Shown piece after piece: positions 32,511 to 64,000 of a stretch of DNA of 64,000 nt. The notes under the pieces are model-generated. The model had not been told where the DNA came from and made no database searches. It was given only the letters and a program-made list of their open reading frames with translations. The stretch is taken from the NCBI GenBank assembly GCA_033439255.1, contig CM065891.1, forward strand, positions 1,860,001 through 1,924,000. The letters run 5' to 3'. How positions within the stretch are numbered: the first letter of the stretch is position 1; each line of letters begins with the position of its first letter. This stretch comes from Hericium rajendrae. Lineage: Eukaryota; Basidiomycota; Agaricomycetes; Russulales; Hericiaceae. A program made the position numbers and the translations under genes.

Positions 32511-32660
32511 TACGATTCCTTAGAATCGTTTACTCTATACCGGCTTTTCCTATCGAAAACGACACCAAAACGATGACCATCCCCATTTGGCAGTTGGCTT
32601 ATATAATCACAAGTCAACAATCTGACGAGTTTGCAGGTTCAATTCCAGTTCAACCTTGAA
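32511..32660 (+). repeat. SINE-like element with hairpin head, copy 1
   Basis: The head ACGATTC-CTTA-GAATCGT (32512-32529) is a perfect 7-bp-stem hairpin followed by TTTACTCTA. About 70 bp on are TGGCAGTTGG (box-A-like) and GGTTCAATTCC (box-B-like, near 32635), spaced as in a tRNA-derived RNA polymerase III promoter. No clean cloverleaf forms. Related copies lie at 32739-32822 and 47121-47285. Confidence 0.45.
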
Positions 32661-32738
32661 TTCTTTTCTTTCATTTTACAATCAACATATCTCACTGTTA
32701 CTGTTCACAATCATTATATAGAACATTTATATCTCATT

Positions 32739-32822
32739 ATGATTTCTTGGAATCATTTACTCTAACTAATTTCTCATATAAAGTGAGGTTATAAGTTTGA
32801 TTCTGCCAATTGCCATTCTTAT
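32739..32822 (+). repeat. SINE-like element, shortened copy 2
   Basis: Head ATGATTTCTTGGAATCAT (32739-32756) then TTTACTCTAAC, a shortened middle, and AAGTTTGATTCTGCCA in place of the box-B region. The hairpin head keeps pairing although bases differ from copies 1 and 3 (C-G changed to T-A). Confidence 0.45.
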
Positions 32823-33197
32823 AATTTTGGATATTTCTTAGAGATGTTCAGTCTTTCAAATCTAACTAAATCATTGTAAGACTATATGCATATTTAAATC
32901 AATGCTAGTCATATTAGGACCAGAAGTTCTCAGTATGAAAAAGTGCAAACTTGTTACAAGATAGTGAATAAATGTACTTCATAGTAAAGTCTGTATCTTT
33001 TTATTGATGTAAGTGAGTGTGATATATGGTAATATAATGAGAGCAAATTTTACCTCCTCAGAACATTTGTTTTCATAACAATAGGTCCAGAAATGACTGA
33101 GATATGAGCAAATCACTTCAAAAGATATCCTTGAGAAGGAGATCATAGTGATTGCATTGTAGTGGAGCAATGAGTGGTGCTATTTACACGCTAAAGA

Positions 33198-33235
33198 TAC
33201 CGTTGGAAAGGTCTGATTTGCACCTTTCCAACGGC
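33198..33235. repeat. small palindrome CCGTTGGAAAGGT / ACCTTTCCAACGG
   Basis: Perfect 13-bp arms separated by about 8 bases, inside the composite insertion. Role unknown; one of several isolated hairpins here. Confidence 0.5.
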
Positions 33236-33489
33236 ATATTATACAAGACGATCGGATAAGTATTGAGAAAACGCGGTAGTGATTACTGAAGGGTTGGTAT
33301 TAGAGGTAGGGGCAAACTTGTTGAGGCCATATCTTTTTATCGACTCATCCAATTGTAGTGTACCTAGTGTTGTTGAAAAGGTATAATGGAGATCTTTCTG
33401 ACGCAATCAAGGGACCGATGATATCTCCAGTACTTAAGGAGGTACACTCGAATTATCACAAAACCTCCTATTTGCCTATTTTCAAGGTC

Positions 33490-33589
33490 TTACATAATCC
33501 GCAGCACGGGCAAAATGACATACTCCCGTCCCATGACATCATGAGGGGGACGGGAGTACGTCATTTTGCCCGTGCTGCGGATTACATAA
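33490..33589. mobile_element. 84-bp foldback MITE with 8-bp TTACATAA duplication
   Basis: Inverted arms start CCGCAGCACGGGC and run through AAATGAC and ACTCCCGTCC (element about 33498-33581) around a short loop. TTACATAA occurs directly on both sides (33490-33497 and 33582-33589). An 8-bp duplication is typical of hAT-type elements. A second copy lies at 54667-54748. Confidence 0.7.
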
Positions 33590-33901
33590 GCAATTTATAA
33601 GCAGGAAAAAATCGAAAAAATCATTCAAGTCTAGGGCAAATCATCAGATCATCTGAGAATAGACACATACTGAGTAGTATAAAAAATCAGTAAAAATCGT
33701 GTTAATATGGCCATTGATAGTACTATTTAGAAACACTTGAGTTTATGTTTATAGCTAGAGAATTGACAGAGATATAGCCAAATTACTGATTCAGACCCCT
33801 AGAAGGCAAAAATAAAATCAATCTAGACAACATACAACAGTTGACAGACCTTCAAAGGCCACACTTATGTACTTCATAAATGTAAACACAATTAATGAGA
33901 A

Positions 33902-33947
33902 GTCACGTGCAACAGCGAGCCTGACCGAGCTCGCTGTTGCACGTGAC
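33902..33947. repeat. 46-bp palindrome, copy 1
   Basis: 19-bp perfect arms (GTCACGTGCAACAGCGAGC, 33902-33920, and its complement, 33929-33947) around CTGACCGA. A near copy at 53097-53142 has a different but still paired base in the arm and a similar loop (CCGACCG). Confidence 0.65.
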
Positions 33948-34109
33948 CATTATTTTGTCATTAGTTCAACTCTTGCTGGTAGCAAAGTTTAAAAATAAGA
34001 GATAAGTGTAAAACAATATACTTTGAAGATGGAGATCTTTGCAGTATGACAATACTAGTATATTCAATTCTCTGTTATCTTATTAATTCTGTGAGCATAA
34101 CACTACAAA

Positions 34110-34510
34110 CATCAGGAACCTCCAAAACTTTCTGATGGATCCTTCAGAGTCTGATCAACTGCAAGATCTGATTCAGCTGCAGGCTCTAATTAGAGGACAA
34201 TTTTTGATCAGAGATTTTATATTTTGAAGTCAATAACTATTGGCAGATATAGTAGTCATCCAACTTTAATCATTGGATGCAACAAAGTTTTCAATATCTA
34301 AAATTTATATGAATCTGATCAGTTCTGATCAGTCTGCAAGCATTCTGCATTGATACTTTTTTGAATCTTGAGGTCAAATATTCTGCAGCTAGCTGAGAGT
34401 AGCTGATGCTGTCTGAGAGTGTCTGATGTGTCTGATGCAACTGCTGCAGATCATGCAGACACTGTCAGATGCCTCGCAGGTCAAACAGAAAGTTTTGAAG
34501 GTTCCTGATG
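34110..34510 (-). mobile_element. 401-bp MITE, copy 1
   Basis: Ends CATCAGGAACC...GGTTCCTGATG. It is the reverse complement of the copy at 51419-51819, with the same length and only scattered differences by eye. The terminal inverted repeats are about 20 bp. Flanks here are AA rather than TA. No coding capacity; many TCTGA/TCAGA words. Confidence 0.75.
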
Positions 34511-35960
34511 AAGTTAGAACAATTTAAAAGGAATCGTATTGCCGTGCAGAGCATCGGCCCTCTTCCCCCAAGTAAAATATAGTAGTTTGTACTAGAATAA
34601 CTTTATATACTTTTTGATCAACTATTTCTCAAAGTGAGTTTGAACATAATATGCATTGAGTCATCTGAACTTGGTTTGAGGTTATTATATTCATATTATG
34701 CTATATAATTGTATAAATCAGTATATGTCAAATATCTTTTTTTTGCATTTGAGAAGGTGTTTAGCAATATGATAGATCAGATGCAGATTTTCAAACCTTT
34801 CCAACAGTATTATTTTTATGTCAATCGGATCAAAACTAGCTGAGATATTTACAAATTTTTATTTTATATAAAGCATTTGGTCCAGTATTTTGCAGTTTGC
34901 AAGTGACCTATGATAGCTATAGCAGTCAAACCACTTGTGCACTACTCACATGATATTGTGTTACAATTTAGAGCAGATGTCACTTTTTTTACATGTCACT
35001 CATTATCTTGTTAGTCATATAGACTTAACGTCAATGCAAAGTCAAGATATTTGATAGTTGAGAAGCAATGTGTTCAGAAATGCACATATGCACACCAACC
35101 CAACCCAACACCAATAACAACTATTGAACTGGTTTTACTTTAAAATCTAGATCTGAACATATAAAGTTGATGACAGATGATGATAATGGAAAAAATCCTA
35201 TGCTTGAATTGTAGCACAATATCATGTGAGTAATGTACAAGTGGTTTGACTGCTATAGCTATCATAGGTCACTTGCAAACTGCAAAATACTGGACCAAAT
35301 GCTTTATATAAAATAAAAATTTGTAAATATCTCAGCTAGTTTTGATCCGATTGACATAAAAATAATACTGTTGGAAAGGTTTGAAAATCTGCATCTGATC
35401 TATCATATTGCTAAACACCTTCTCAAATGCAAAAAAAAGATATTTGACATATACTGATTTATACAATTATATAGCATAATATGAATATAATAACCTCAAA
35501 CCAAGTTCAGATGACTCAATGCATATTATGTTCAAACTCACTTTGAGAAATAGTTGATCAAAAAGTATATAAAGTTATTCTAGTACAAACTACTATATTT
35601 TATAATGTATACCAGTTCACAAGTGTCAGATTTGAATTCAGCTCATAAAATGGAGCAAAATGATATATATATTATATAATTGCTAATTTTAGAAATTTAT
35701 AATGCTTACATCATCATATAACTATCAGATTCAGAATCAGCTCAAAAAATGAAGCAAAATGATATATATATTGTATAATTGCCAAATTTGGAAATTGATG
35801 ATGCTTCCATAACAATTTGGACATCAGATTTGAGCTCAGCTCATAATTCCGAGCAGAATAATATATATATTATATAATTACCAAATTGAGAAATTACCTC
35901 TGATTATATAAGCTAACAGGTATCAGATTCATATTCTACTCATCAATACGATGACAGCTA

Positions 35961-43336: not shown

Positions 43337-43688
43337 GTTTCTCGTCTGCATCAACATCCCCACTCCATTCATCGTGTCTCTCATGCCTGTGGCGCGCAAG
43401 TTGTCTCCCCCATGCCCTGTGGCCCGCGCCTGCCTCGCCCCTCTGCTCCATGCCTAGCACGACCCCCGCATGTCCCCACCTTCTTGTGCATGACTCCAGG
43501 CAGATGGCACCGCGCATGCTCCGCCCCTCCGTCCTCCGCCCATCACGACTTCCGCACACCTTCGCCATCTCGTGCATGGCCCCACACGACCCCGTACGAC
43601 CCCGCACGAACGCAGGTTCTTGCGGTCTTGCGTGCACACCCACACATCGTTAGTACCTTTCTCTATGTCTTTCTGCTCGTCTGCTGCC

Positions 43689-43985
43689 CGCGCAGGCTGT
43701 GGGGTCCGAATCGAAGACGTTTCGGGCCCTACAGGTGCGCGGGCCTTCGCTTATCGTGTCTACCTGCCCGCGCAGGCTGTCGGGTCCGAAACGTTTTCGT
43801 TTCGGGCCCTGCAGATGCGCGGGCCTTTGAGTTTCGTATTTGCGTGCCCGCGCAGGCTGCGGGGTCCGATACGTTTTCGTTTCGGGCCCTGTAGGTGCGC
43901 GGGTCTTCGATTTTCGTGTCTACCTGGCCGCAAAGGCTGGGGGGTTCGAAACATTTGTGTTTCGGACCCTACAGGTGCGCGCGGA
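43689..43985 (+). repeat. 80-bp tandem repeat, 3.7 units
   Basis: Units start at exactly 43689, 43769, 43849 and 43929 (CGCGCAGGCTG, then GGGTCCGAAACG...CGTTTCGG...CCC, then GGTGCGCGGG). Each unit holds an internal hairpin (GGTCCGAAACG / CGTTTCGGGCCC) that is kept although loop bases vary. It leads directly into module F. Confidence 0.85.
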
Positions 43986-47120: not shown

Positions 47121-47285
47121 TTTTTACGATTCCTTAGAATCGTTTACTCTAACCCGCTTTTCAACTCAAAAAAGATGACACCCAGCCAATGTAATGCCTT
47201 TTATGGTAATAATTTCTCACACCTAAAATATAAAGATAAGGTTGTAGGTTCGATTCCACCATCTGTCATTTGTTTTCGCTTTTCT
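47121..47285 (+). repeat. SINE-like element with hairpin head, copy 3
   Basis: ACGATTCCTTAGAATCGT (47126-47143), TTTACTCTAACC, then GGTTCGATTCC (box-B-like, about 47250) and a T-rich end. The T-arm does not pair perfectly, so it is not called a tRNA gene. Confidence 0.5.
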
Positions 47286-47735
47286 TACTGAGCACGATAC
47301 AGCTTTCAGTCATGCTTGATTATTTATAACCAAAGCTTGTAGAGAGATGTGTGCATCTGTATCAGTCATGATTGTAGACTATTGATAGGTAGTTCATGAT
47401 GAGCGACTCTTTCTGTATGCTTCTTGCTTTTAGGCACATTGGATGAGATATCCTCGGCCTTCAAGTTAGGGCTTAGCTCGTATGACTAGTCAACTGACTT
47501 TTTACATTTACACTCAGTCTCAAGTTTTTCTTGCATGATGATCTGTATGCCATGGCCTTCTTGCACTCTAGATAGCATCTATTAAAATGATATAGAGAAT
47601 ATTACAATAAATTTAGAGAACTAACTATATCGTGGATCTCTGCCCTCTTGTACTTTGCCTTAGTGAAAAATAAAAGAGAAGTCAATAAACTCTGCTATTG
47701 TGCCATACAATCATTTCTACTGTAGAGTAATGCCA
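47286..47735. other. 3' flank of the JmjC gene, nothing recognised
   Basis: 450 bp of AT-rich non-coding sequence downstream of the minus-strand JmjC gene. Confidence 0.35.
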
Positions 47736-50700
47736 CTACTTGTGACGAGTCTTCTTGGATGGCTGACTTGAATTCTCATCTGCCTCCTCATCTATACCCT
47801 TCCTCTTTTCCACCTCCTCTACTATCTTATCAGCACCAATAGTCTTCCACACCTTTATATTTTCTGCAAAGTGAGTCTCTATCCAGGGAGGACTCTGATA
47901 GCCATCAGGCTTCTTCCACACCGATTGTGATCCATCTCCAACATAGGGCTGCAGGCTTTCAGGAAGGTCCGCATTGGCATCAAGCCACCATCTGTTCATT
48001 TGGTCTTGCATCCTCAGTTTCTTGGTCCAGAAGGTCTCCAAGTCAGAGCAGAGAGAGGAAAATAATGAAGAAGAGGACATCTTGAGATCAACAGCCTCTA
48101 GGAGATCTGACCTCTTTTCAATCTGCTCCCTATAATAGATCCAAGCCTGAGCCACCTTTTTGCTGCTTTCAGTAAAGAATGCCAAGGGATTGGGTGAATT
48201 CTCATGACAGCCTTCACTGAGATAATGCATGATCATCTTTGTAAGAGCAAGTCCATTGATAGATCTGTGGGCTTGAATTGTAGCATCAGGTCGAGGTATA
48301 TTGTTCTTGACAACTGATAAGCTTGAAGCAAAGATGACGGCATGTGCAGCTGCTAAAAAGATGTGCATCCCTTGAACAGTTTTGATATTGGGATACTCAG
48401 CTACAATATACTTAGAGAGGATAATACAAATCAAATTGTAAGATAGAACTCACCACAAGGAGAGGGATGGTCCAACAGATGAGCCCACCAAGCCATGAAG
48501 TCAGCTAGTATAGGACGAACAGATGGATGAGAGGTGTTGTTGTGAATTGTTCCCACCATTTGAGAATGAATTTGTCCTAAGAAGCTACGATCCAAGCATG
48601 ACTGGGCATAGAAGTGACGCCCATAGACAAGGGTTGCCTCAACTCCATACACCCAGTGGGGAGTACAAGCACGCTGATATCTATAATAATGTCAGAAGTG
48701 AGAATTGAAAGTCACAAAGCAAATTATTTTTACTTACAAAGTTTGACCTGGCTGAAGAAGAATACCCTCCACATAATACTTATCCAGATCAAGATCAGAA
48801 AAGTTCTCAATGTCCAGATAGGTGTTCAAGTTGCCAATATTGTCTTTGCTTGAATCTTTGGGTGTTAGCAAAATCCAGAGCTTGGTGCCAACTAGTGGCT
48901 TTGAAGCTGTAGCTAAGCCATCTGTGTCTTCATGAAAATCTGATATGGATCCCTTGGTTGCTGCAGTGGCCCAGGATAGATCTGTTGTTGGCCTATTATG
49001 ATTCTTAGGTCGGAGGATAGCTTCAAAGTGTCGCAGCACAAGTTCATGAGTAGCTAAAGCACTTGATATCTCCAAGTCAATATGATAAATAAGCACACAT
49101 AAATTTATAATCATACCTGAAGTTGGGCATTTCTGCCAAAGGTTCTGGACAAGGATTATCCAATCCATTTAAGACCTTGCCATCATACTGGACATGCAAA
49201 TCTTCTGCAAGCAGTTCTGGATCCATGCCTGCTTGAAGAATATCACGACGTGTGCCTTTCCTCAGCTGTGCCTGTGCTTTTTGTCCAGATCTATGAGCCA
49301 TGTCTGTCATATAAGCATTTGTTAGTACCTGTCCTATGATATAAGTATGATCTTACCCTGAATCTCAATGATCTGATCCAGATCACCCAATCTTTCCATA
49401 GATTCCTCATTCCAACCCCATCTTCTAGAACTAGGCTGACCATGTACCAAGATATGCCTGTAAGAGAAGATATCTTGAATGATAGAGGTGTCTAGCTCTG
49501 CAAAACTATCACAGGACGTGACATAGACTGCAGAACCAGTATTTCTGTCAGAATGTTCATGTTGCTTGGCAGATTCTTGACACATGCGTGGCTTTCCATT
49601 AGGCTGCAAGCTAGATTCAAGAGCTGTTTTTAACTTGTTGCCTAACTTGATCTGAAAGTCATCCTATTAAATGATATGTATCAGAATCTCAGTGCAAATA
49701 TATATATACTGATCTCTCACCTCATTCTCCATGATAACAGGTTTGTAGGAAATATGAACTATATCATTACTCTTTGCACAATATGCAGGAAGCATGATAG
49801 GCTCAGAATGCAGCTGATCAAAATTAGACAAGTTAGTCATAGAAATCTTCACATAAATTTAGCATTTTTACCTTAGCAGGTTTGTTATCCAATGCAGGTA
49901 TTTCCTAAAACAAGATTAGTTCTTTATATGCATCCAAAGATATTGATATGAGAAGCTTACTGATGGTATAGCCAGCTGAAAGGGTAGTGTGTTCACCTTA
50001 GTTTTGAGTTCCTCAATGGCCTCCCTACGTGCACCAGTACCTTCCTTTCTGCCTTCCATATTTCTGATAAACCTGTTAGGGTCTACCTCAGCTTGGATTT
50101 CTTGCTGTCTCTTCTTTTCCTTCTCTTCTTTTTCTCTCTTCTCCTTCTCCTTCTCTTCTTTCTCTCTCTTCTCTTTTTCCTTCTTCTCCTTCTCCCTCTT
50201 CTCCTTCTCCCTCTTCTCCTTTTCCTTTTTCTCCTCCTTCTTCTCCTTCTCCTTTTCTTTCTTTTCCTTCTCCTTCTTTTCCTTCTCCTTTCTCTCTTTT
50301 TCTTTTTTCTGCTTTGCTTCTGCTGCTCCTCATCTTCCTCATCTTCAGACTCTATGTAAACTGGTTTTTTCACCTCTTTCTTCCGCCTTAATGACTTTTT
50401 TGTTTTAGCTAAAATATATTCATATTAGATTATAGATTATCAAGCCAAGAATCAATTGATTTTTTTTACTTACCTTGATCAATGCTACTTTCATCATCCT
50501 CATCCTCATCCTCATCCTCTTCATCACCTGCACACATTTGAATTGATTGATTAGATTAAATATATAACAAATAATGACTTACTTGATTTGCTTTGCCAAC
50601 TTTCCACAAGGTCTCGCACAATTGTATTTGGATTTACCTTGCTAGGGTTAAGTCCAGCTACAATTGCTGCCACAGTCTGTTGGTGATCTTCTGACAAACT

Positions 50701-52925
50701 CTGAACCAATTGTTGAGTTTCTGCATTGAGAACAACATTTATTTCCAATTGATCTTCATCTTGATCATTAGATGCAGCATTATCAGACTGCTCTTCTGCT
50801 CGTCCTAAAAATATATTAGTAAAAACCAATTTACAAGTGATGTTCAAAATTTCTACCATATCCAGGCTCTTGGAACCAGCTACTCTCATCAGCCACCTCT
50901 GCCTTCTGAGAAAAATGGACTTTCCAAAAGGAAAGAAGTTGAGGTACATGCATGCTAGCAGGTGCACCCCGTGCAATAGCAAACAGAGTGATCCATATCA
51001 TCTGTTCAAACTTGATCAGATTTGGTGCTCGCTGAACATTGCCTAAAAGAATGAAGACCTAGAACATATGCATATAAAATTGTTAACAGATAAAATGATA
51101 TAGATATATTAAACATACCTGTAGATATACAGCACGACTGAAAGCATCTGTATACAATGATCGTCCCAAGAATAGCACAATTGGAGAGAGTGATAGGCAA
51201 AGGAGAATAGGCGATAGAAATTTAGGACGTCTGAGAGTTTCTATTTTTGCAATGTCTTCATCCGATAAGTTTGCATCTCTATAGCAAGATCACGGTCAGA
51301 ACAAATAATAAATTAAGCATAAATACTATGACTCACATAAAAAGCTTTTTCCAAAATGTATCCTCATCTGTGATAAATATAGCTGTCTGAAGTAAGATTA
51401 TTAATTTGTCAAGACATACATCAGGAACCTTCAAAACTTTCTGTTTGACCTGCGAGGCATCTGACAGTGTCTGCATGATCTGCAGCAGTTGCATCAGACA
51501 CATCAGACACTCTCAGACAGCATCAGCTACTCTCAGCTAGCTGCAGAATATTTGACCTCAAGATTCAAAAAAGTATCAATGCAGAATGCTTGCAGACTGA
51601 TCAGAACTGATCAGATTCATATAAATTTTAGATATTGAAAACTTTGTTGCATCTAATGATTAGAGTTGGATGACTACTATATCTGCCAATAGTTATTAAC
51701 TTCAAAATATAAAATCTCTGATCAGAAATTGTCCTCTAATTAGAGCCTGCAGCTGAATCAGGTCTTGCAGTTGATCAGACTCTGCAGGATCCATCAGAAA
51801 GTTTTGAAGGTTCCTGATGTACAACATTTGAGCTTTATTACCTTCATCATGGCTTGTAGACCAGCAGCTGCCACTTCAAAGTGCTGAATTATAGAAAAAA
51901 CTAGATTGTCTTTGTCTTTCTTCACCACACCCCACACAAGTGCACTTGTGATCTTGGCCGCAGCTTCATCATCCCAGGTTGTAGAAGTCCAGTAGCTTTC
52001 AAGCACTTTACTAGGTGTAAGAATGATACTGTCACTTGATGTAGTGGCCTCTGTCCCTAAAAGGAGCAATTGGTCCGGGTCTTTATGAAATGCATGGTAT
52101 GCCTTCTCCATAATACTAGGCCATGACTTCAGATCTTCCACAACCTTGGATATATCAGATCACTGAGTAAAGAATGAAAAAGTAACCACATACCCCTTTG
52201 AGAATACCTGCCTTCTGCACAAGCTGCTTATATGCACTAACTTGAGGCAGATGTAATTGCTTGTGGCCTCGAGCAGGTGACAGATCATAAATCTTGCAGA
52301 TGACATCTACAATCTGATAGCGAGCAATGATGTTGGTAATCAGAGGAAGATGATTGGAACCAATATTAAGAACGGCATGAAAAATAGCTTGGCAGTCCTG
52401 CTCATTGTTTAGATTTTGACCGCCTTCGACCAGGAGCTTCCACAGGTTTCCTTTCTGAGGAGGAGGCAAATCATAGAACTGTTCCTTTCCCCAGTCATCC
52501 ATATGAGTCAGAAATTTCTAGAATATATTTAATACACAACATCGGAACTCGAATAAAGAGTACAACATTACCTCATACACGTCCAACAACTTGTCTTCGA
52601 CAATCTGATCTGCCAGAACTAAAGCCTTCAAGTCCTCTTTGGTTGGAGGATTGACATGCCTCCGCTGCAAGAGGGTCTTGAGTGTGAAGATGGTCAAGAT
52701 ATCACCATTGAACCAAGGCAATGCTTGGAGCAACTTTGCTTCTTGTCTGAAATCCACATTCTCAGCTTGTGCCTTATTTACAGTCTCTGAGACCAGTGGA
52801 GGTTTGGTTTTAGCAAACTCTTTGGCTGGTATCCAGCTGACAAAGCATCAGTAAAATCAGATAGCAGATCAAGAATGAGTTTAGGGGTCATACCTGAAAT
52901 CTGGCTGTGCTGACTTGGAAGCCAT
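47736..52925 (-). CDS. JmjC-domain protein with conserved unknown N-terminal region
   Basis: Multi-exon gene (about 15 exons, roughly 1,250-1,350 aa). It starts at 52925 (MASKSAQPDF), with first exons 52925-52894 and 52836-52572; the stop is at 47736. The N-terminal third is a conserved-looking alpha-helical region of unknown family (ALPWFNGDILTIFTLKTLLQ). The middle is acidic (DEDEDEDDESS), followed by about 90 residues of Lys/Arg/Glu repeats. The C-terminal part holds a JmjC fold. FHED, with its metal His codon at 48934-48932, is followed by GTKLWILLTP, ILLQPGQTLYQ, and TPHWVYGVEATLVYGRHFYA, with the distal His codon at 48658-48656. HxD...H is the Fe(II) set of JmjC hydroxylases/demethylases. 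The end is basic (SQPSKKTRHK). Substrate unknown; nuclear location inferred. One intron (51387-51840) carries a MITE. Confidence 0.75.
51419..51819 (+). mobile_element. 401-bp MITE, copy 2, inside an intron of the JmjC gene
   Basis: Ends CATCAGGAACC...GGTTCCTGATG with TA on both sides (51417-51418, 51820-51821). The host intron runs 51387-51840 (454 nt); removing the element and one TA leaves 51 nt, the normal intron size here. Donor (AAG|GTAATA) and acceptor (CTTCAG) are intact, so the gene is probably still expressed. Confidence 0.85.
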
Positions 52926-53096
52926 GATTGTGAAGATTAGATGAGGTCTACAGAAGGTTAGATGCACCATTAACATAGGACAAGAGAGAGTGGAAGCTTA
53001 CCTTGTCTGTAGCAGAGATGACAGCAGAGAGCAAGAGAGGTGTGGCAGCAATAAGGCCGGGTGGCTGAAAGCCAACATGATCACATGACATCTTTG

Positions 53097-53142
53097 ATCA
53101 TGTGCGACAGCGAGCCCGACCGTCCTCGCTGTCGCACGTGAT
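53097..53142. repeat. 46-bp palindrome, copy 2, upstream of the JmjC gene
   Basis: GTGCGACAGCGAG (53102-53114) and CTCGCTGTCGCAC (53125-53137) around CCCGACCGTC. Paired change GAC/GTC versus AAC/GTT in the copy at 33902. About 170 bp upstream of the JmjC start codon, so it could be a promoter element. Confidence 0.6.
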
Positions 53143-53254
53143 CCCTCAGAATTGCGAGAAAAAAAAAAGAAACAAATTTTATTTAAAGTGTCTAATATAC
53201 AATACGATAACTGTGCTACGTAGTTTATAATTAGATTGAAACGTACAGACTCGA

Positions 53255-54245
53255 AATCGAGACCAAACGGTCACGATTTCGAGCTGCACGACGTGTGGGG
53301 CATACCCACACCAGCATCAGAAGTCTGACCCAAAATCACGACCAAACGGTCGCAATTTTGGGCCAGCATGACGTGTGGGTACTACCCACACGCCCTGGAT
53401 GCAAACCCTCTCGTACAGGGCTAGAAACGTCACCGAACGGTGACGTTTCCAGTCCTGCACCATGCAGAACAAGTCCGGGTCGTATGGACCCAAAATGGCG
53501 GCAAACGGCCGCAATTTTGGGTCCATATGACGTGTGGGTGCTACCCACACGCCCCGGACACAAAGCAACTCGTACAGGACTAGAAACGTCACCGAACGGT
53601 GACGTTTCTATCCCTGTACCATGGAGAACAAGTCTGGGTCGTACGGACCCAAAATCGCGACCAAACGGTCGCGATTTAGGGTCTGTACGACATGTGGGTG
53701 TTACCCACACGTCCCGGACATGAACCTGTCGCACAGGGCTAGAAACGTCACCGAACGGTGACGTTTCTGGCCCTGCACGGCATGCGGGAGCTACCCGCAC
53801 CGTGCACAAGAAGTCCGGGTCGTACAGACCCAAAAACGCGACCAAACGGTCGCGATTTAGGGCCTGTACGACGTGTGGGTGCTACCCACACGCCCTGGAC
53901 ATGAAACGTGTCGTGCACAGCCAGAAACGTCACCGAACGGTGACGTTTCTGGCCCTGCACGGCATGCGGGAGCTACCCGCACCGTGCACAAGAAGTCTGG
54001 GTCGTACAGACCCAAAAACACGACCAAACGGTCGCAATTTAGGGCCTGTACGACGTGTGGGTGCTACCCACACGCCCTGGACACGAAACGTGTCGTGCAC
54101 AGCCAGAAACGTCACCAAAAGGTGATGTTTCTGGCCCTGCACGGCATGCGGGAGCTACCCGCACCGTGCAGAACCTGACCCGGGTCATACAGATGCAGAA
54201 ACGTCGCCGTTTGGCGACGTTTCTGCATCTGTATGATGTGGAAGG
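53255..54245. repeat. tandem array of palindromes between two dioxygenase-like genes
   Basis: Units anchored on CACCGAACGGTG at 53431, 53590, 53749, 53931 and 54113 (CACCAAAAGGTG in the last) are 159, 159, 182 and 182 bp. Each unit strings together hairpins CGCGACCAAACGGTCGCG, GTGTGGGTGCTACCCACAC and AAACGTCACCGAACGGTGAC plus its complement. The longer units add a 23-bp hairpin, GCGGGAGCTACCCGC. A final variant hairpin (AAACGTCGCCGTTTGGCGAC) is at about 54196. Confidence 0.85.
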
Positions 54246-54461
54246 TCTACGCACCTTACGCAGCTGGCAAAACGCCAGCTGCAACTGCCCTGGGCAGTGC
54301 TCAAAGCCCCGGGGCCGGAAGTGAGGCCGTTGGGCCGGAACGGAGCACGGTCGAGCCATTCGCGAGGTCGTTGGACCTCAATCAGGCCGTTGGGCCCGGC
54401 GCGCGAGCCCCGGGGGGCAATGGATGAGGTCGGAGGGAGGGGGGAGGGATGGGATTCAAAC
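54246..54461. other. GC-rich hairpin-rich spacer
   Basis: Contains GCAGCTGGC-AAAAC-GCCAGCTGC (about 54259-54281) and repeated GGCCGTTGGGCC / GAGGTCGTTGGACCTC short palindromes. No coding frame of interest. Confidence 0.5.
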
Positions 54462-54540
54462 GAGCACCAACTCGCTCGAAACGAGCGAGTTGGTGCTCAT
54501 CATTAGTAAATAGATTGAAATGAGAAGTTTTATTACTTAC
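54462..54540 (-). other. donor / branch-point / hairpin module G
   Basis: Minus strand: CTCCG|GTAAGTAAT, TTTACTAATG, then hairpin GAGCACCAACTCGCTCG with its complement (54462-54498). The stem sequence differs greatly from modules A-F yet pairs over 17 bp. Upstream on the minus strand is GAGTTGGGGCTTGGTGGAA and GTCGGGAGGG, like the block of module D. Its downstream direction points to the JmjC gene. Confidence 0.6.
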
Positions 54541-54666
54541 CGGAGTGCTCCGCAAACCCTCCCGACATTCCACCAAGCCCCAACTCTGCGAGAAGAACGA
54601 GTACTTACCAGAGAAAGAGCAAGAGAGAGGACTTGCGCTGGAAATCACGATCGGGCCTTACGTAAT

Positions 54667-54748
54667 CCGCAGCACGGGCGAAATGACGTACTGCCGTCCC
54701 CCTGGTGATGTCATGGGACGGGAGTATGTCATTTCGCCCGTGCTGCAG
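54667..54748. mobile_element. 82-bp foldback MITE, copy 2
   Basis: Arms CCGCAGCACGGGCGAAATGAC and complement around a CTGGTGATGTCAT loop, matching the element at 33498-33581. The right end reads CTGCAG rather than CTGCGG, and no clear target duplication remains. Confidence 0.6.
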
Positions 54749-54859
54749 ACGCTGCGGGCGCTTAGCGGGCGCTTGCTGCCAGGCTCCTTACTTCTTCCCG
54801 TCATCTCGACAACAGTGCTCAAATCTCGTCTTCTTCGTGGTTTTCTTTAGCGGTGAGTC

Positions 54860-55392
54860 TAATTATTCTTATAATCTTTGTATAGATGTATAAAATGGCT
54901 AAAATAAATCATAACACCTACTATCTTTAGCAATCCGAGTGTGGATTGTCAATTCACCGGCATTTTGAGTACTTTTGGTATACTGTCGGAGCTGAGTGCT
55001 TCCTTTTAGCTGTTTATCTTGATAGTAAGCTATATTTTCCTTATATCATATGTATATGTATATGCTAATGTTATTATAGACAGAGGTCTCAATAGCAAAG
55101 AGTCGACCCCTAACATTGGTGGCATCTTTGGAGCTTTTTGTGGGGTTTGAGCAGTTCGGTCAGTTCGGTACGCGGTAGGTACTTCTTTTTAAGTGATTCT
55201 TTTTGGAGTGAATCTAATTGGTCTATCCATATGGGCCTAAAGCTAAAGATAGAGCAATAAATAGCTACTTTTCAACAACAACAATAAAAATATTTCAATT
55301 TGACATTTTTAGTGCTTTTTTCTATAGTAAGTCAACTTCTCTCATATTGTTTGCAAGTACTAGGATTGATATAAATTATAATAAATATAGTT
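54860..55392. other. 5' flank of the 2OG-dioxygenase-like gene
   Basis: AT-rich with several GTGAGT/GTAAGC donor-like and TTATAG acceptor-like sites, so it may contain non-coding leader exons. No coding exon was recognised. Confidence 0.35.
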
Positions 55393-58300
55393 ATGACTTC
55401 TCAAACTCTACCACATGATCTAAAATCATTACAATTACATGGTCGAGATTCTGAACTTCCTCCTATTGGCATACGGCCAGATCATCCTCTGCATGCAAAG
55501 AACTTTTTGAATAGCGACGATCCTTTGTACAATACATTCAAGGATGGTACAACATATGTGTGCATAGTGGATACAAGTTCAGCAGGCAAGCAGAAAAATG
55601 CAGAGTATGCAGCTCGGGTTGGAGTACCTCGGGGTACCTTGAGAGAGATGAAAGACAAATTTGGTGAGTATTTTGCTCACATTTTTATACAGCTACTAAT
55701 AGAAATAATATTTGTCAGGCTTGATTCAGTTGAATTCTGGTGACATGGTGTTTGTACGATCGCAACAAGATGGAGATGTGACAGGCAAGAAGGATCTTTT
55801 TCAGGGAACCATGATAGCAGGGTATGTTGTTTAAACTTTTTAGCTTGGTATCACTATACTAATTCAAGAACTTTATGTGATAGAAAATTTTTCTCTTCAG
55901 AAAAAATGGAGCATTTGCAACAGGCATTGGAAAATGCTCTTGGAGAAGAGGAGGAGAGTACAGCATCAATGCCTATTTGGGATTCAGATTCTAAAACATT
56001 AATGGGTGGTACTGCTTTTGAGCGTACTGGTATCTTGCCAGACAAATCCGGTAGAACATATCAGATTGGACCAACCCATCAAAAGCCACCACATCTTTTT
56101 GCGCCTTCAAAAAATGGCAAGTTAGAGAAAGGTGGAGAGTTGACAGATGCACAGAAGATGTCTAAAGAACTATTGGATGTAGGTTTATAAGATCTTTCTG
56201 ATATCAATTTGGCTAAAGCTGTATAGGCAACTACTGGCTTGTTTTCAGAGGGCTATAAATGCTTGCCAGGCATACAAAATTATGTTCAGTCTTTTGCAGA
56301 CTTGCATCCTTTTCCCAAAATTGGATCGTCAGACAATTTTATGACCCAGGCCATGCAAGTAAATATCTCAAATGCCACTACTTCTGAAGCAGGTTAGTAA
56401 AATTAAAATGAATATAACAAAGATTCAAAACTAATATCTACATAGATGTGGATCTTGCATCTATCCTTGGTCATTATGGTGGCAAACATAAAGATGGATA
56501 TGATGCCCTTGGAGCTTTTACTGCTATGGTTTCTCATTCCAAGTATCCTAAAAATGGATATGATCCTGGTCGCTTTCACTTGCTAGAGCTTGGTGTTTTC
56601 ATCGTGCTAGAGGATACTTTGGCTTGTTATTTTTCAGGCTTGCTTATGCATGGTGGTACTTCTCCAAAGGCTCCTTTAGGAACATCAACATCGGCCTTGA
56701 AGACTACAGTTCGCCTCAATGCTATTGGTTATCCAAATGATATCTTGTATGATATGAAAGGCATCTTACCTTTGTGCGCTTGGTCCTCAAAATCATCAAA
56801 GGAAGGCTTTTTACCTTTAGGTCCTGAGGTTAGATATTAGTGAGTTCTACTTGTAATATTAAAGCTATATATATTGATTTATCTTTGTAAATGTAGTCCA
56901 GAGGATAGAAGTGACACTACAGATAATCCCGTCAATGCTGGCAAGGGTAGCTGGGCTAGAGATGGACACATCATCATGCAGCCTGACTCCTTACTTGATT
57001 TTATTGTACGACATCTTCTGTTGTTGTGTATTTTCATATGTGCACAGATCTGGCCCAAGCTTCAAGTTTGTTGTTCTTACTTGATTATTTTGTTGATTAT
57101 TGATATTTCACTCTATAGGTTCAAATTGATGTTGACAAGTTTGTCTCTGCTTTTAGCATCAAATCAGCAGATTCAAATTCATCTCATCGATATGTTGCAA
57201 AAACTTGGGCTCTAGCACCTGGTCAAGTTGCAGTGCATATCAATAACATTGATACTATTCCTATCACTGTGGTTCCATCTGCTACAAATGGCCAAGAAGT
57301 GGTAGAAGATCCAAGACATCCTGTCCTGAAAAGATGGAAAGAATGGTTAATTCAAAACTACAATCTTATGCCCAGCAATTACAAGTCTTTCCCAAAGCTA
57401 TTCATTGATCCAGATAATCCATTAGAGTCTCAGGTGTTAGGTGGTAGTTATTTGGGAGGTGTGTTTACATTTTTTTGATATAAAAGAGATTCAACTAAAT
57501 TATCTTTTATATAGGAAAGACAAAGGCCTATACAAGATCTAAGCCAGGTAGTAATTAACTTATGGTGTATTAGCTAAGACTAATTGCTCAACATTGTATC
57601 TTTGTAATAGCAAAACTACGCAAACCTAAGCACTTTTCTGTTGGCAGTTTGAAAACACGTTCCAACATAAACAAGAAAATACGATCGGTAGCAGATGCAA
57701 TTATTTCTCCATATAAGCAAAAAACATCAGACAAAGGAAAGAAAAGGACCAGAGAAGATGACAATGAAGAAGGAATACGAAGAAGCAAGAGATTGTGCCA
57801 TAGGGTGAATTATGCATGTTAGTTTTTAACAATTACATATAACATAATTATTACATACTGAGCATAGTATGAGATCAGATGAAGACCAAGATGAAGATGA
57901 AGAAATGAGAGATGCTTCAGATGAAGATCAGTGGCAAGATGAAGATGAACAACATGATGATGAAGAACAGAAAAATGAAGATGAACAAGAAGAGGAGAAC
58001 AGTGCTGATCAAGTACAAAAAAGCCTTGCAAATGTGGAGAAGACCCTATCTTGGAGCCAAGAGTGCTTTAAAGATATGCTTTCCTCAAAAGAATCTGATG
58101 ATAGAGATGGTATTCCACTTTCTTCTATTTTACGATGGAAAGGTATGGAGAATTTTTTTTTTAGTTAACAATATGAGTCTAACATCAAGAGCAGAATACT
58201 TTTCAGTAGAATCACTCAAAAATGACTTGAAAGCACTCTCTACTCATAGGAACTCCATTCCTGCATCCTCCTCTAGTTATGTTGTGGGGCCATCTACACA

Positions 58301-60130
58301 TATCAGCCTCAGCAACATGGCAACAGCTATTAAAAAATGCACTCCTGGATGTCTGGATCCTTTGCCTTCAGTTCAGAAAGGCCTACAAAACATTTCTGAT
58401 CTTCTTCATAACATTGCACTTCAATCTCTAGACACTCGTTGCAATCAATTTATAGTCATGATGTCTCATATGACAGCATGGCTATGGATTGATCATATTG
58501 CAAGCTACTATGCAGATCAAGTCTTGAATGTCCATGCTGAGGATGAAGAAAACTGGATTGTGAAGCTTGGGCGAATATTGTTGGCTGCTGCTAATGCAAC
58601 TAATTCATGCAATATCACTCTGACACCATCCCATTTTACTTCAAATCTTTCTACTGTGCCCAGTGTTATTTGTCTCCCACCTTGTCGCAATGATCTCAGC
58701 TCTGTTGACTTTAGCCCTCGAAAACAGTTTCTTCACCAATCTTTACGAATGGCTTTAGGACAATGGTTAAATCCTGATCAAACCGTCTCTCCTCATGCTG
58801 TTGCTCAAGCAGTATTTGTACAGAATTTAGTCTCTATTGCAGGTATGTTTATATATCAATAGTAATATTTTATAATATCTCATCATGATAAACAGGGATA
58901 GAGATTCTTTACTTGGAAAAGACTTTTGTTCTCTTCTGTGGATTTAGTTCAATGGTGGCAAAGAAAAAGCTACGGCGCTCCGTATCTCAAGATGATTTAC
59001 AACATTTTTTAACTTGGCTATCTCATCATGCTATTGTCATACCAGACACCGAGGAGCATAAACTTCTGATGTCCATCAATGATGTTTGTGATCAATATTC
59101 CGGTTTCAACAAAGATGCTCGTAAACATATTGAGACCTTGCCAATTCCCTCTACTGCTAGTCAGTCTGAAGAGAGACATTCCCCTTCACCACATCCTCCT
59201 CTATTTTCTCATCCTCCACTTGGCTACACAAAATGTTTAAAGTTTCTGCATGCAGCTGTATTCTTCCTGAATAGATGTTCCTTGGAGAATGAGCTGTCCT
59301 TTACAGGTGATCTAGAATGTGCACCTCCAGAACATCATGCCCTCCTTACAAAAATGGCTACACGACTTGACCATTATCTTCCCTTTCGTCAGCGTGCACC
59401 AAGCCTTGTGAGGATGAGAGAAGATGATACTCCTTTTTCGCCAACAAATGTTCACTCTCAAGCTGGATTTTTCAGTGCTCTGATCTTCCGTGGCATCACT
59501 TATGGTTGCCAGTTTGTCTTGGATCAGAAAGCCATGTTTTCAGACCTAGAAGACTGGTCAGCCTGTTATGACAGCCTTAAATCCAATAAATCCTCAAATT
59601 ATTTCTGCGACACCACAGCTTATGGTTGTCCAACCCAGCGTAGCGTTGAACATGCAGAGAAATATTGGAGGGCAGCAAACATAGAATGGAAGAATTTGGT
59701 GGAAAGAACAGCACATTGCTCCTTTGCAGCATTTTACAAGTGCATCAAAAACAAAAAGTCCAAAACAAATGAAGTCATGTTCTATGGCTTTGGACCACTT
59801 GTGGCTTATCTTCTCACTGCAGACTATGCTTATACAGATGTCATTGATATGCCATCAGAGTATGATATGGGTGAACTTATATCAGAGATCCAAGCAGGAG
59901 CACTGAAAGGCCTAGCAAAATTACAATTGATCCATCCTAAGGAGAAAAACAAGATGGTCATCAAAGATGCATTTGTTTTGCTATTTCATTTTCTAGATGC
60001 ACAGCTGACTATAGAAGAGAAAGAGAAGATGGTGTTTGATCCTATTATGCTAGAACATACTTTATGTAAAGTATCTCGACTGTGGAACTTTGGGTTAGAG
60101 CAGTTGGTAAGATGTCTTATATATTTATAA
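55393..60130 (+). CDS. large protein with a TET/JBP-like Fe(II)/2-oxoglutarate dioxygenase pattern
   Basis: About 12 exons, roughly 1,250 aa; start MTSQTLPHDLKSLQLHG. Within the exon from about 56446, HKD (His 56487, Asp 56493) is followed by GRFHLLELGVFIVLEDT, SGLLMHGG (His 56649) and TTVRLNAIG (Arg 56712). This is the order of metal ligands, beta-helix strand and 2-oxoglutarate-binding Arg in TET/JBP-type dioxygenases. That exon ends near 56838 with a join to YPEDRSDTTDNP. A basic then very acidic linker follows (KKRTREDDNEE; DEDQDEDEEM). A conserved-looking C-terminal half of unknown family (about 58170-60110) contains WLWIDHIASYYADQ. It is divergent from the JmjC gene. If the family call is right, it would oxidise 5-methylcytosine or a related base. 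The 3' end is uncertain: splicing at 60108 would stop at about 60165. Confidence 0.6.
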
Positions 60131-60253
60131 GTGATCAACTCTGATTTGATCTGTCTTATAGTAACTCGTGACAGATGGATGGAATGAAATATTGAATAGG
60201 TATCCTGTGTACAGACAATCCAAAAAAAACACTTCACGACAAACAATATTGAT

Positions 60254-61504
60254 CTACGCAGAACTAGAATCTTGCATAAAGGTGTCCTCTAAGCCTTCTA
60301 CAACCATGCTCTTTGTCTTCTTCACCTCTCTTGACATAGCGTCAACTGAGACCACATATCCAATGCGCCTTTTCAATACCTTTGGAGGAGATGCCTTCTT
60401 CTGAAACTCAATAGAGTATGCTTGCATATCATAGGCCTAGTAACAATCTATCTGTAAGTGTCATCTATACAAAGATACAAACAAATTTACCTCTTGCAAT
60501 TGACGATCAAGAATAGCTACAGATCGCAACTTGCATGCCATCTGATACAACCCTTTTTTTCCAGACAGAGGTACCGTAACAAAAGACACTTGCACCTGAA
60601 CAATCTGACCAGGTCGAATGATAGCTGGATCAATGGTGATATAGTGATAATCAGAAGATCTAGAGGTTTTAACATTAGTAAAATACAATGCAAGAGTCAG
60701 CATAGAGTTGACGTACGTGCTGTTCCACTTTCTTTCATAGTACTCAACCTTATTATCATCAAGATGAGCACCTGCAGTAGATGTGGCCAGTAGCAAGAGG
60801 CCTTGTGGATCCACGACGTCCCCAAAGGGTACAGGACTTGAGCTGTTGACAAGTGAGAGAGGAGTGACGTAACGGTTGGCAAAGCTAAGGCTTGCATGAC
60901 TCTCAACTTGATCAGGAACCCATGGTCTGAGACCCTTCACAGAATAGATGCTATCTATGAGACGATGGATAGCTGCAACACTGGCAACTGATTGATCAAA
61001 GAGAGGAGATCCTATTCCTAGTAGGCGAACGCTCTGTTTCGCCCAAATGATCTTCGTAGGTAGACTGTCATATGTTTTTAAGCAAAGAGAAAGACGACAA
61101 AAGCAGATAATAACACACCTGTTGCGATCCAAAATTGGTGGCAAGTCATAGTCTAACAAGACACCTTGTCCTTCCCAGACGGCTTCCTCCATCTCTGCAT
61201 CAAGATCCGAGTTTCGCAACACAACCTTTGCAGATCCATCTACGGCTTTATGTGCGACATAGTTCTCTCTCAAGAACTTCATCTAACAAAGCTAGTTAGC
61301 TGAATCCCAACAATAGTAAGGTATGAATACGCACATCAGACATATTGCTGAGTTGAAGATGACGTGGTAACTGCTTTACAGCATCATCACTGATCTTCAT
61401 AAGATGTGCTCCTACATATTCATTCGACAAACCATACAGAGACAAAACACTAATCACTTACGGCAATCTGGCTTGTCTAAAAACTCAATCAAAGGTAGAG
61501 ACAT
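60254..61504 (-). CDS. conserved-looking protein of unknown function
   Basis: Starts MSLPLIEFLDKPDC at 61504. Several exons; one intron (about 61130-61075) joins LDRN to SLPTKIIWAKQ. The last exon, 60436-60254, follows the acceptor TTACTAG and adds AYDMQAYSIEFQKKASPPK up to the stop; an unspliced reading would end earlier with VNLFVSLYR. About 420 aa. No catalytic motif seen. The segment RPGQIVQVQVSFVTVPL followed by LRSVAILD alternates like a beta-barrel and is the most conserved-looking part. It converges with the 2OG-dioxygenase-like gene. I recall similar unannotated proteins recurring in agaricomycete genomes, but cannot name a family. Confidence 0.6.
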
Positions 61505-61858
61505 CTTAAATGATGTGTAGAACGTATGGATAATGAAAGCAATCCTTAGAGGGGGAAAAAGAAGAAAGATAGGATAGGACGGCAGAACTGCAAAGGATAG
61601 ACCGGAGCATTCAAAATTACGATGTGGTCTGATTCTGACTCTGTTTTTTCTATTGGTCAGCATTAACAACAAGATCATCTAGATTCATAGCAGCACAATC
61701 CGATCTATGTTCTTTGTGAATGTAGTAAGGTGCAGGCTTATTTTCAAATGTATCAAGATTACGATCCAACAATTTCAATTTTAATGATCCTCCGTGATCC
61801 AGGTTTCTTGGTGTCATCTCCGCTTCCGCTTAAGTCCGGTCAAGGCTTGGCTACTCGG
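61505..61858. other. intergenic: promoter of the 61504 gene
   Basis: About 350 bp without coding potential. It presumably holds the minus-strand promoter and borders the 224-bp repeats. Confidence 0.35.
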
Positions 61859-62390
61859 AAGATCTCGCTTAGAACATATTGCTTCTGAATCAACGGTCCA
61901 TGGCTTCATGTTATGCCTAGCACTTTGCTCACTGCTTCTTTCAATCGCTCTCTTGGAATTTCATTGCTGGTTGTCACTCTTCCGGTCCAATGGGCATCTT
62001 GTGTTTTATGTTTGTTCCGAAGCTTCAGGTCCCATGATACGTGTCATCATTCCTCAAGCTGGCTAAATGTTCAGCTACTTTGCAGATCTCGCTTAGAACA
62101 TATTGCTTCCGAATCAACCGTCAACAGTTTCATGCTATGCCTAGCACTTTGCCCCCTGCTTCTTTCAATTGCTCTCTTGGAATTTCATTGCGAGTTGTCA
62201 CTCTTCCGATCCAATAGGCATCCTGTGTTTTATGTTTGTTCCAAAGCTTCAGGTCCAATGGTACGTGTCATTTTTTCTTAAGCTCGCTTAAGGCTCAGCT
62301 ACTTTGCAGATCTTACCTAGAACATATTGCTTCCGAATCAACCATCAGGGTTTTATGTTATGCCTAACACTTTGTTGTCCAGTTGAAATT
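61859..62390 (+). repeat. 224-bp direct repeat, 2.4 units
   Basis: Units start at 61861, 62085 and 62309 (GATCTCGCTTAGAACATATT), an exact 224-bp period. The first two are highly similar; the third breaks off after about 80 bp (GCCTAACACTTTGTTGTCC). Open frames inside are repeat translations and not considered genes. The array lies 500-1000 bp upstream of the next gene. Confidence 0.85.
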
Positions 62391-62740
62391 CTATATTTTA
62401 CATTTCCAATGTCGGCTACAAACATCCTAGGAACATACGTGTTTTTACCGTACTTCGGGCCAACGCTGAAGCATTTTGTTGATCTCAGGTTCCGATTTTC
62501 TTGTTCATCTTGCTCTGCATCTTGCTAATTCTTATTTGTTTTGGATATTCAGTTACTACTTGACATGTCACTATACCCCAAAGATCTGTCAGACCGATTT
62601 GATAGGTGACTACACAAATTCAGATGTAAGCACGCTTTCTATCATAATATCTCCAATTGCATCATTCATCGGTGCATTCACAAAGTATGACTTGAGGTCT
62701 AAGTCAGATTTACACCTGCCCTAAACTCCTATCCTCATTT

Positions 62741-62748
62741 TATATAAG
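62741..62748 (+). promoter_or_regulatory. TATA box
   Basis: TATATAAG 127 bp upstream of the start codon at 62868, in a position fitting a transcription start near 62770. Confidence 0.55.
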
Positions 62749-62867
62749 AAGAGAGCAGTTCAATCACTTTGCCTCAGCATTTGCTACCCTACTGTTCTTT
62801 TGCATCTTTGCCGACACTTCATTTGTTATTGCACGTCTATTATCCTCTTCTTATACCTTTTTTCATC

Positions 62868-64000
62868 ATGAATACTCGGTCTCGCAGCAACAAGGACAAG
62901 GTCCTTGCTCTTCCTTCCACCCCTGTTCGTAAGCCCAAGATGACCGTTCAACCTTCGGCTCCCAAGGGACTCAGCCGGACGTCATCTCTGGCTAGCTCAC
63001 TAGGTTCTATGAACTCGTATGTCTTTATTTTGTGCAATTATATGATTGGGCTAATGCCATTGACAGTAGAAAGAGAGCTTTGGAAGAGCCAGTGTTCGAG
63101 TCCGATGAAGAGTACACTTATCTTTTTGGAATTTTGTTTCATACTTTTCTGACTATTTTGTGCGTAGGCCAGAGTTGCAGACTCCATTGACTTCACGTTT
63201 TAAACAGATGGCTAAAGCAGATCGGTGAGTTTTTTTTATCTTTTACTGTTTAGATATGCATTAACATAAGAATAAGAGAGCCTCTCCGCTTACGCAAAAC
63301 ATCAGAAACGACTAACAATAATGGGACTGCTTCTGCCCCGAAGAAACAGAAGATAAATGAGAAGTACTTATATGTTTTTTTTCTCATACATTTGCTTTCT
63401 TGATATTGTTGTTTTTGCAGAAAAGAGCATACTTTGATATCGGATGATGAGTACGTGATTTTATTGCATTCTCCACATGCATAGTCCAAGCTTGCTTAGC
63501 TTTACAATTGTACTTGGCAGTCCATTTTCGATTAAGGAGGTTAATCCTCAGAAGACGTATGTCGTACAGTTTTATCTGTAGAATGATTGCTGATTTGCCT
63601 ACACATTATAGATCAAAGGATGTCTTTCTAGATGACGAAGCTGCTGACACTACAGATGCAATGGTTTCTGATGACGTGCAGAAGAGCACAGATGAAAACA
63701 AAGAGAATCAAGACAACATTGACTTGGACATGATGGACGACAATCTGTATGTTATTGTCACATCTATTGGAATACTAAATCATTCTTCTTTCAGAATTCC
63801 AGAGGGCTGCAATGTCACCATTGCTACGTTGATTGATCCCCTTATGACAATGTTTTACAAACAACTTCCCCCTCTAAAGTACGCTTGATTTTTGTTGTAA
63901 GCTTTTCAGAATGACTTACGACTCTTTTTCTTATAGCACGTCTACTAGTCTGATTGGTGGCAGTGTAGATGTCATGACCTACGCAGTTAGTCGTCTGACA
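62868..64000 (+). CDS. hydrophilic, probably nuclear protein, 3' end outside the window
   Basis: Starts MNTRSRSNKDKVLALPSTP. Many small exons split by introns of about 50 nt; joins such as TC|T at about 63015/63066 and CG|...at 63222 keep the frame. The N-terminal part is basic (KPKMTVQP, KRALEEPVFESDE, KKQKINEK), then acidic (DDEAADTTDAMVSDDVQ). A more ordered part begins near 63800 (GCNVTIATLIDPLMTMFYKQ). The gene runs off the right edge, so its domain content is unknown. No family recognised. Confidence 0.6.

Follow-up and report, generated by a model that had tools for sequence, protein, structure and literature searches.

A JmjC-like gene and a putative dioxygenase gene are cargo of a Helitron2-type transposon in Hericium rajendrae

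Locus and element

We analyzed a 64,000-nucleotide stretch of the Hericium rajendrae genome (C14:1860001-1924000, hereafter the window) and counted copies and matches across the species' own 46.8-Mb genome of 19 contigs. The right part of the window holds two divergent, intron-rich genes, a JmjC-like gene read on the minus strand from 52925 to 47736 (16 introns) and a TET-like gene on the plus strand from 55393 to 60130 (12 introns), followed by two further genes at approximately 60254-61515 (minus) and from 62868 onward (plus). A preliminary description of this DNA had recognized this arrangement but had taken it for an accessory cassette bounded at 47736. That position is only the stop codon of the JmjC-like gene. 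The two genes are instead cargo of an approximately 26-kb rolling-circle transposon of the Helitron2 type that has defined ends and its own Rep/helicase (RepHel) and is copied around the genome. The mobile unit starts at 47125, and the window contains its plus-strand portion 47125..64000, with the 5′ end inside and the 3′ end past the right edge.

The extent of the element was established by comparison with other copies. Relative to copies on C11 and C12, the left boundary is sharp at 47124/47125, with unrelated flanks. A copy at C12:1.44M matches window positions 57792-64000 at 99.3% and extends approximately 9.1 kb further, including the Helitron RepHel. When the window part is completed with the right part of the C12 copy, the element comes to approximately 26.0 kb, of which the window holds the left two thirds.

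The termini have the asymmetric inverted repeats of Helitron2 elements. In the 5′ terminus, which contains a hairpin (47125..47151, plus strand), the first 10 bases after the T are ACGATTCCTT, and a motif close to the 3′ end is their reverse complement. The 5′ end reads TACGATTCC... and the 3′ end AAGGAATCGT...CCCAAG(T), with ACGATTCCTT at the 5′ end and AAGGAATCGT approximately 35 bases before the 3′ end. Of the 8 right ends that were examined, 7 have this latter motif (with one substitution in one of the 7), and it is absent from the C5:1.32M copy (L078), whose right end was not found at the expected place. Genome-wide, the 5′ end pattern TACGATTCCTTAGAATCGTTTACTCTA occurs at 274 places with at most one mismatch, and 171 places match the 3′ end with at most two, compared with no matches for the reversed-pattern control of the former or the control of the latter. 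Among the matches listed, 7 of 10 exact 3′ ends sit at JmjC, TET, or RepHel copies. The 5′ terminal DNA hairpin (−5.8 kcal/mol) was equaled by none of 200 shuffles; the 3′ hairpin is weak, with 24 of 200 shuffles as good. Insertion occurs at a T without a long target duplication, as in Helitron2, with TT preceding ACG in all 15 distinct flanks. At one filled/empty site, a Helitron of the same kind is inserted in the C11 copy and the window at 59070 represents the empty state, with an ambiguity of one T.

The RepHel carries the domains expected of a Helitron2 transposase. On pieces from the right part of the C12:1.44M copy, Pfam identified DUF6570 (E = 1.9e-42), Helitron_like_N (E = 3.5e-28), and a PIF1-type helicase (E = 8.5e-22). 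This RepHel is broken, since its domains fall in several frames, and one C11 copy has an open frame of 2305 aa. No AP endonuclease, a mark of Helentrons in the narrow sense, was among the Pfam matches of the C12-copy pieces scanned, the gaps between pieces being unscanned. We take the C-terminal tail to be cysteine-protease-like from its motifs; Pfam and the PDB gave no support for this assignment. The RepHel and the termini explain the copies; a transposon of the KDZ group, which the preliminary description had mentioned, was rejected on this ground, no search aimed at KDZ genes having been made.

Several observations concern the distribution and structure of the termini. Among the matches listed, 5′ ends are concentrated in a single region of each of several contigs (for example, C5:1.03-1.65 Mb and C4:1.68-1.96 Mb), as well as close to the beginning of C1; these locations are possibly centromere-like and subtelomeric. 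The C12:1.20M copy (L037) has 5′ termini at both position 100 and position 180, a distance of 80 bases, and at C4:1806500-1807400 (L080) the 3′ end of one copy adjoins the apparent 3′ end of another in the opposite orientation. Within the window, a short Helitron copy of the same family, with both ends, spans 32511-34573 (approximately 2.06 kb) and has a further, degenerate 5′ end at 32738.

Copies, linkage, and subfamilies

The cargo genes and the transposase travel together. Searching exon by exon gave 65 genome matches to the JmjC core query and 49 to the TET-like query, which, collapsed by place, yielded 15 TET loci. The JmjC N-terminus lies divergently, on the opposite strand and 4.1-5.7 kb upstream, at 11 of these 15 loci; a RepHel exon (at least 86% identical) follows downstream, no more than 30 kb away and on the same strand, also at 11; and both are present at 8. 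In 5000 trials with the TET loci displaced locally, by 20-300 kb, and their strands assigned at random, the corresponding means were 0.15 (JmjC) and 0.63 (RepHel) and the maxima 3 and 5. Each locus was counted once, leaving out second pieces of the same gene, a hit at C10:100560 (28% identity), and RepHel hits below 86%. The expectation in the preliminary description that the genes travel together is borne out within this genome, where they are multi-copy and co-located rather than single-copy.

Six other copies have both ends, with lengths of 25104, 25858, 26036, 26583, 31706, and 32520 bp, and also hold JmjC, TET-like, and RepHel matches; for these copies, ends were paired by position and orientation, the intervening DNA was read in part, and two ends come from pattern positions alone. 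B-type copies are 96.9-97.9% identical to the window on the TET side (five loci) and 78.4-79.0% identical on the JmjC side (three loci), so the left and right parts of the element have been exchanged. A more diverged JmjC subfamily has 55-57% identity in the core and approximately 32% in the N-terminus. RepHel lies in matching orientation at six of its eight loci within 65 kb, a limit set after the distances were seen, compared with a control mean of 0.83 (0 of 5000 trials as high) and one of eight when strands were flipped. In four of the six, the distance from a 5′ terminus inward to the JmjC core is 9.67-9.76 kb; a fifth (C5:1374654) has none at that distance among the matches listed, and the sixth, on C12, lies beyond the range of those matches. 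A search of viral contigs found no relatives.

The JmjC-like gene

The JmjC-like gene (47736..52925, minus strand) comprises 17 exons encoding an N-terminal domain, an acidic and poly-Lys linker, a JmjC-like core, and a C-terminal region. The structures of this gene and of the TET-like gene are predictions, from splice models made by hand on the sequence. A division of the minus-strand model into two genes (50.5-52.9 and 47.7-50.4 kb) was considered and rejected, as the N-terminal part and the JmjC core recur jointly in relatives. Two anchors flanking the poly-Lys stretch are 365 nt apart in the window. The corresponding spacing is 366 nt in each of three further copies and 327 nt, also a multiple of three, in a fourth. 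The stretch is free of stops in two of the 366-nt copies and in the 327-nt copy, and the remaining 366-nt copy contains a stop.

The core exons (48454..49061, minus strand) encode HED as a candidate Fe site, the K of GTKLW, and the distal H of HWVYG. These residues (H44, D46, K61, and H117) are invariant in all six aligned relatives, down to 43% identity, in the order of the JmjC metal site and cofactor lysine; a decayed relative with Y in place of the distal H (L084) was left out of this alignment. Support from profiles is weak. Only one of the six members, the 57% relative, matches PF02373 (E = 0.01; 16.7 bits, below the cut-off of 24). The sole PDB match of the window core is a KDM7 homologue (E = 0.28), and the best three of five matches in a PDB profile search are KDM7 JmjC chains (E = 0.27-0.34), which is not significant. 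With hhalign, neither JmjC nor TET homology was significant and the reversed control scored similarly, and NCBIfam gave no match for either domain. The JmjC motif context noted in the preliminary description is thus present, and its residues make JmjC membership plausible; we conclude with moderate confidence that the minus-strand protein is JmjC-like.

For the JmjC gene alone, comparison of the window with the B-type copy (L009) over 319 codons gave dS = 0.86, dN = 0.14, and dN/dS = 0.165 (Nei-Gojobori); more distant pairs were saturated. As judged from these substitution rates, the JmjC gene is under purifying selection. It also recurs in diverged Helitron subfamilies. An insertion of approximately 0.4 kb with 32-bp terminal inverted repeats lies within JmjC intron 4 (51413..51821). 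The same inverted-repeat element recurs in or beside Helitron copies, at window positions 34109-34510 (inside the short copy described above) and 51413-51821 and at L070 positions 7523-7927 and 9071-9478.

The TET-like gene and downstream genes

The TET-like gene (55393..60130, plus strand) has 13 exons and encodes 1356 aa in the splice model. The intron that connects its two halves (57795-57867) has a weak donor, so the second half, from approximately 57868, could instead be an independent gene. A single exon (56446..56839, plus strand) carries the dioxygenase layout, with an HKD motif whose H is at 56487, an MHGG motif whose H is at 56649, and an R farther downstream, as the preliminary description had seen. 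The spacing of this HxD...H...R layout is 54/21, compared with 50/9 in L086 and L087, two Tet_JBP proteins encoded elsewhere in this genome. The layout is common to Fe(II)/2-oxoglutarate (2OG) enzymes in general. Alignment with the two Tet_JBP proteins placed distal H on distal H, with 66-69 of 1000 shuffles scoring as well; alignment with a third 2OG protein was reached by 683 of 1000 shuffles. When HKDGYDALGAFT was read against Gly331/Asp337 of CcTET (AG type), D and T stood at these places, so the AG-type residues are absent, and the HKD motif likewise differs from the HxE hallmark of the PE type. The plus-strand domain therefore has a 2OG-dioxygenase layout and may be called TET-like by analogy only.

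Of the two downstream genes, the first (60254..61515, minus strand, approximate ends) contains an open frame at 60461-61282 with no Pfam family and a best PDB match to a dihydropyrimidinase-related protein (E = 0.018) that we take to be chance. An RPA-like identity for this gene found no support in Pfam or the PDB and was rejected. The second (62868..64000, plus strand) consists of open frames that run past the window, with a matching part in another copy (L073).

Elsewhere in the window, a conserved host gene encoding an eIF-3c N-terminus (2046-2912; E = 1.4e-75) indicates that the left part is ordinary genic DNA. One tandem array with a 99-bp unit occurs twice in inverted orientation (32217-32486 and 35626-35895). 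Scans of the window for tRNA and Rfam families gave no matches.

CpG content and methylation history

The putative shared divergent promoter region (53001..55000) is CpG-rich; at 53327-54170 it contains palindromic units of 159 and 182 bp in tandem. Its four 500-bp bins have CpG observed/expected ratios of 0.99-1.16, compared with 0.05-0.51 in bins of the JmjC gene. Overall ratios are 0.19 for the JmjC gene, 0.27 for the TET-like gene, and 0.22 for the right part of the C12 copy, whereas seven 4-kb bins of the window from 1 to 28000 range from 0.87 to 1.08 and other repeat-rich bins from 0.37 to 1.01. The palindrome AAACGTCACCGAACGGTGACGTTT occurs at 33 genome places with at most one mismatch (control, 0), every one of them no more than 5 kb upstream of a TET start, and is present at 12 of the 15 TET loci. 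It folds at −12.2 kcal/mol, with no shuffle as good. The normal CpG content of this array could reflect either protection against methylation or a recent amplification of its units. Outside the element, at 43684-43981, lies a further palindromic tandem array that is CpG-rich, with an 80-bp unit.

Substitutions between copies and the window carry a corresponding signature. In all 20 loci compared, C>T/G>A changes were commoner at CpG than at other positions; some of these loci overlap in part (for example, L064/L066) or are near-identical (L051/L052), with polarity assigned as if the window copy were nearer the ancestor. In one decayed copy, CpG transitions numbered 26 of 66, compared with 83 of 1096 elsewhere (Fisher p = 8e-12), and Fisher tests on five loci gave p values from 5e-5 to 8e-12. 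The genome has C5-methyltransferase matches at four places. These patterns fit past CpG methylation of the element.

Discussion

Our results point to a Helitron2-type element whose divergent JmjC-like and putative Fe(II)/2OG dioxygenase genes probably serve to counter DNA methylation and silent chromatin. We read the pair as a mobile anti-silencing kit because the genes are CpG-starved, decayed copies have an excess of CpG transitions, and the CpG ratio of the divergent promoter is near 1. The host would methylate the element at CpG and pack it into silent chromatin; DNA marks would be the target of the dioxygenase, and histone or other chromatin marks that of the JmjC protein, and in this way the putative shared promoter would stay open and the element could transpose. 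The layout would then be one of divergent genes expressed from a single CpG-rich, palindromic-repeat promoter, followed by two further genes and, beyond the window, a RepHel with the presumed cysteine-protease-like tail. A more specific version, which we put forward tentatively and with somewhat less than even confidence, is that the kit has two layers, erasing or altering DNA methylation and removing a chromatin mark, with one CpG-rich palindromic promoter kept from methylation loss while the rest decays. The JmjC gene would be an older, general partner of the Helitron lineage, and the dioxygenase would have joined one branch. The suggestion in the preliminary description that the genes act on chromatin and DNA methylation thus stands in so far as an anti-silencing role fits the CpG evidence, but its proposal of DNA oxidation is not supported, and the 2OG domain does not match the Tet_JBP profile.

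A number of observations weigh against this interpretation. The profile searches suggested in the preliminary description placed neither domain at cut-off: JmjC PF02373 has 8 matches in the genome and Tet_JBP PF12851 has 46 (38 above cut-off), none of them at these loci. The TET-like domain has no Pfam family (the best hit is unrelated, E = 0.2) and no PDB relative, and hhalign of the JmjC-like core against four JmjC proteins of its own genome found nothing. The JmjC frame of the window copy is broken by the one-base length difference in the poly-Lys stretch, although intact-frame copies exist, and recent decayed JmjC pairs have dN/dS values of 0.25-0.61, with few changes. The RepHel of the window copy itself lies past the window edge and was not seen for that copy. 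A genome search did not find the TET-like N-terminus in the diverged JmjC subfamily, where the distance limit for RepHel was also chosen post hoc. Nor does CpG mark the promoter alone, because the depletion at 60501-64000, inside the element, is mild (ratios of 0.46-0.76) and a bin with repeats outside it reaches 1.01. The polarity assumed for the CpG changes is a further point on this side.

Among other explanations, the one with the most credibility, although we consider it unlikely, keeps the transposon but holds that the second gene is not of the TET/JBP type, its 2OG domain acting on protein, RNA, or another base modification and the link to methylation being incidental. The missing Tet_JBP match in a genome with so many, the absence of a PDB relative, the ease with which shuffles equal the TET-like alignments, and the lack of the HxE that characterizes the distant PE type (PMC12730594) all favor it. 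Against it, both Tet_JBP alignments superpose the distal histidines with similar spacing, the CpG history would give a DNA-oxidizing enzyme a substrate, and the published PE-type TETs are likewise invisible to HHpred (E = 1.4; Kojima 2025, PMC12730594). A related but distinctly less probable proposal is that the JmjC-like protein is no catalytic demethylase and instead opposes heterochromatin non-enzymatically or acts on the transposase itself. Its low similarity to known JmjC families is compatible with this, and Epe1 is described as a JmjC protein with a non-enzymatic anti-heterochromatin role; the invariance of HxD, K, and the distal H across the six aligned members, with the decayed L084 set aside, argues against it.

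It is also improbable, more so than either of these, that the two genes are passengers captured by the Helitron and copied along without use to it. Helitrons do capture genes (PMC6431247), and several copies of the element have decayed. Purifying selection on the JmjC gene and its long persistence across subfamilies at about 30-57% identity speak against mere capture, however, as does a palindromic promoter array exclusive to TET loci. A free-standing host accessory cassette in repeat-rich DNA has next to no probability. Nothing beyond the view from the window itself supports it, and sharp shared ends, the nested filled/empty site, and many copies with RepHel contradict it; we rejected it on the basis of the element ends and copies. 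An anti-silencing element thus remains our preferred interpretation. Fungal transposons with a DNA dioxygenase are known. An element in which the putative dioxygenase is paired with a JmjC-like gene under purifying selection across subfamilies, and whose CpG-rich promoter contrasts with the CpG starvation of the rest, offers a directly testable case of action against both silencing layers.

Comparison with known systems

The closest relatives in the literature are the TET-bearing Helitron2 of Agaricus bisporus and the TET-bearing Helitron1 elements of rusts and Pezizales (PMC12730594), likewise fungal Helitrons with a distant TET-like gene and a proposed anti-silencing role. The PE-type TETs described there have HxE, whereas the Hericium element has HKD and pairs its dioxygenase with a JmjC-like gene; neither JmjC nor jumonji occurs in the main text of that paper (Kojima 2025). 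Transposon-borne dioxygenases are also known from the KDZ group, whose members carry TET/JBP genes (Iyer et al. 2014, as cited by Kojima 2025) but have DDE transposases. The 38 above-cut-off Tet_JBP genes of H. rajendrae lie elsewhere than this element.

Other Helitrons share parts of the structure. The proto-Helentron of Phytophthora infestans (PMC4067079) is likewise of Helitron2/Helentron type and carries a gene with a histone-modifying domain, although that domain is a SET methyltransferase rather than JmjC-like, and the passages on it name no DNA dioxygenase. The non-canonical, Helitron2-like FoHelis of Fusarium (PMC5148889) share asymmetric terminal inverted repeats, hairpins (the 3′ one being weak here), and a T at the 5′ junction, and some copies have multiple 5′ termini, as seen here in L037; they are approximately 6-7 kb, with no such cargo in the passages describing them. 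The HELPO Helitrons of Pleurotus ostreatus (PMC4289320), also from a basidiomycete, retain cargo genes of unknown function but have canonical T[C/G]...CTRR ends and lengths of 1.5-13.7 kb, and the parts of that paper covered mention no JmjC or TET cargo. Helitrons are typically 6-7 kb, with 14 kb given as a large fungal case (PMC6431247), and our analysis documents a fungal Helitron near 26 kb. A TET-bearing Helitron2 has thus already been published. Our searches of the openly licensed PMC literature listed no report of a JmjC gene in a Helitron and, by that measure, the JmjC partner would be the new part of the Hericium element.

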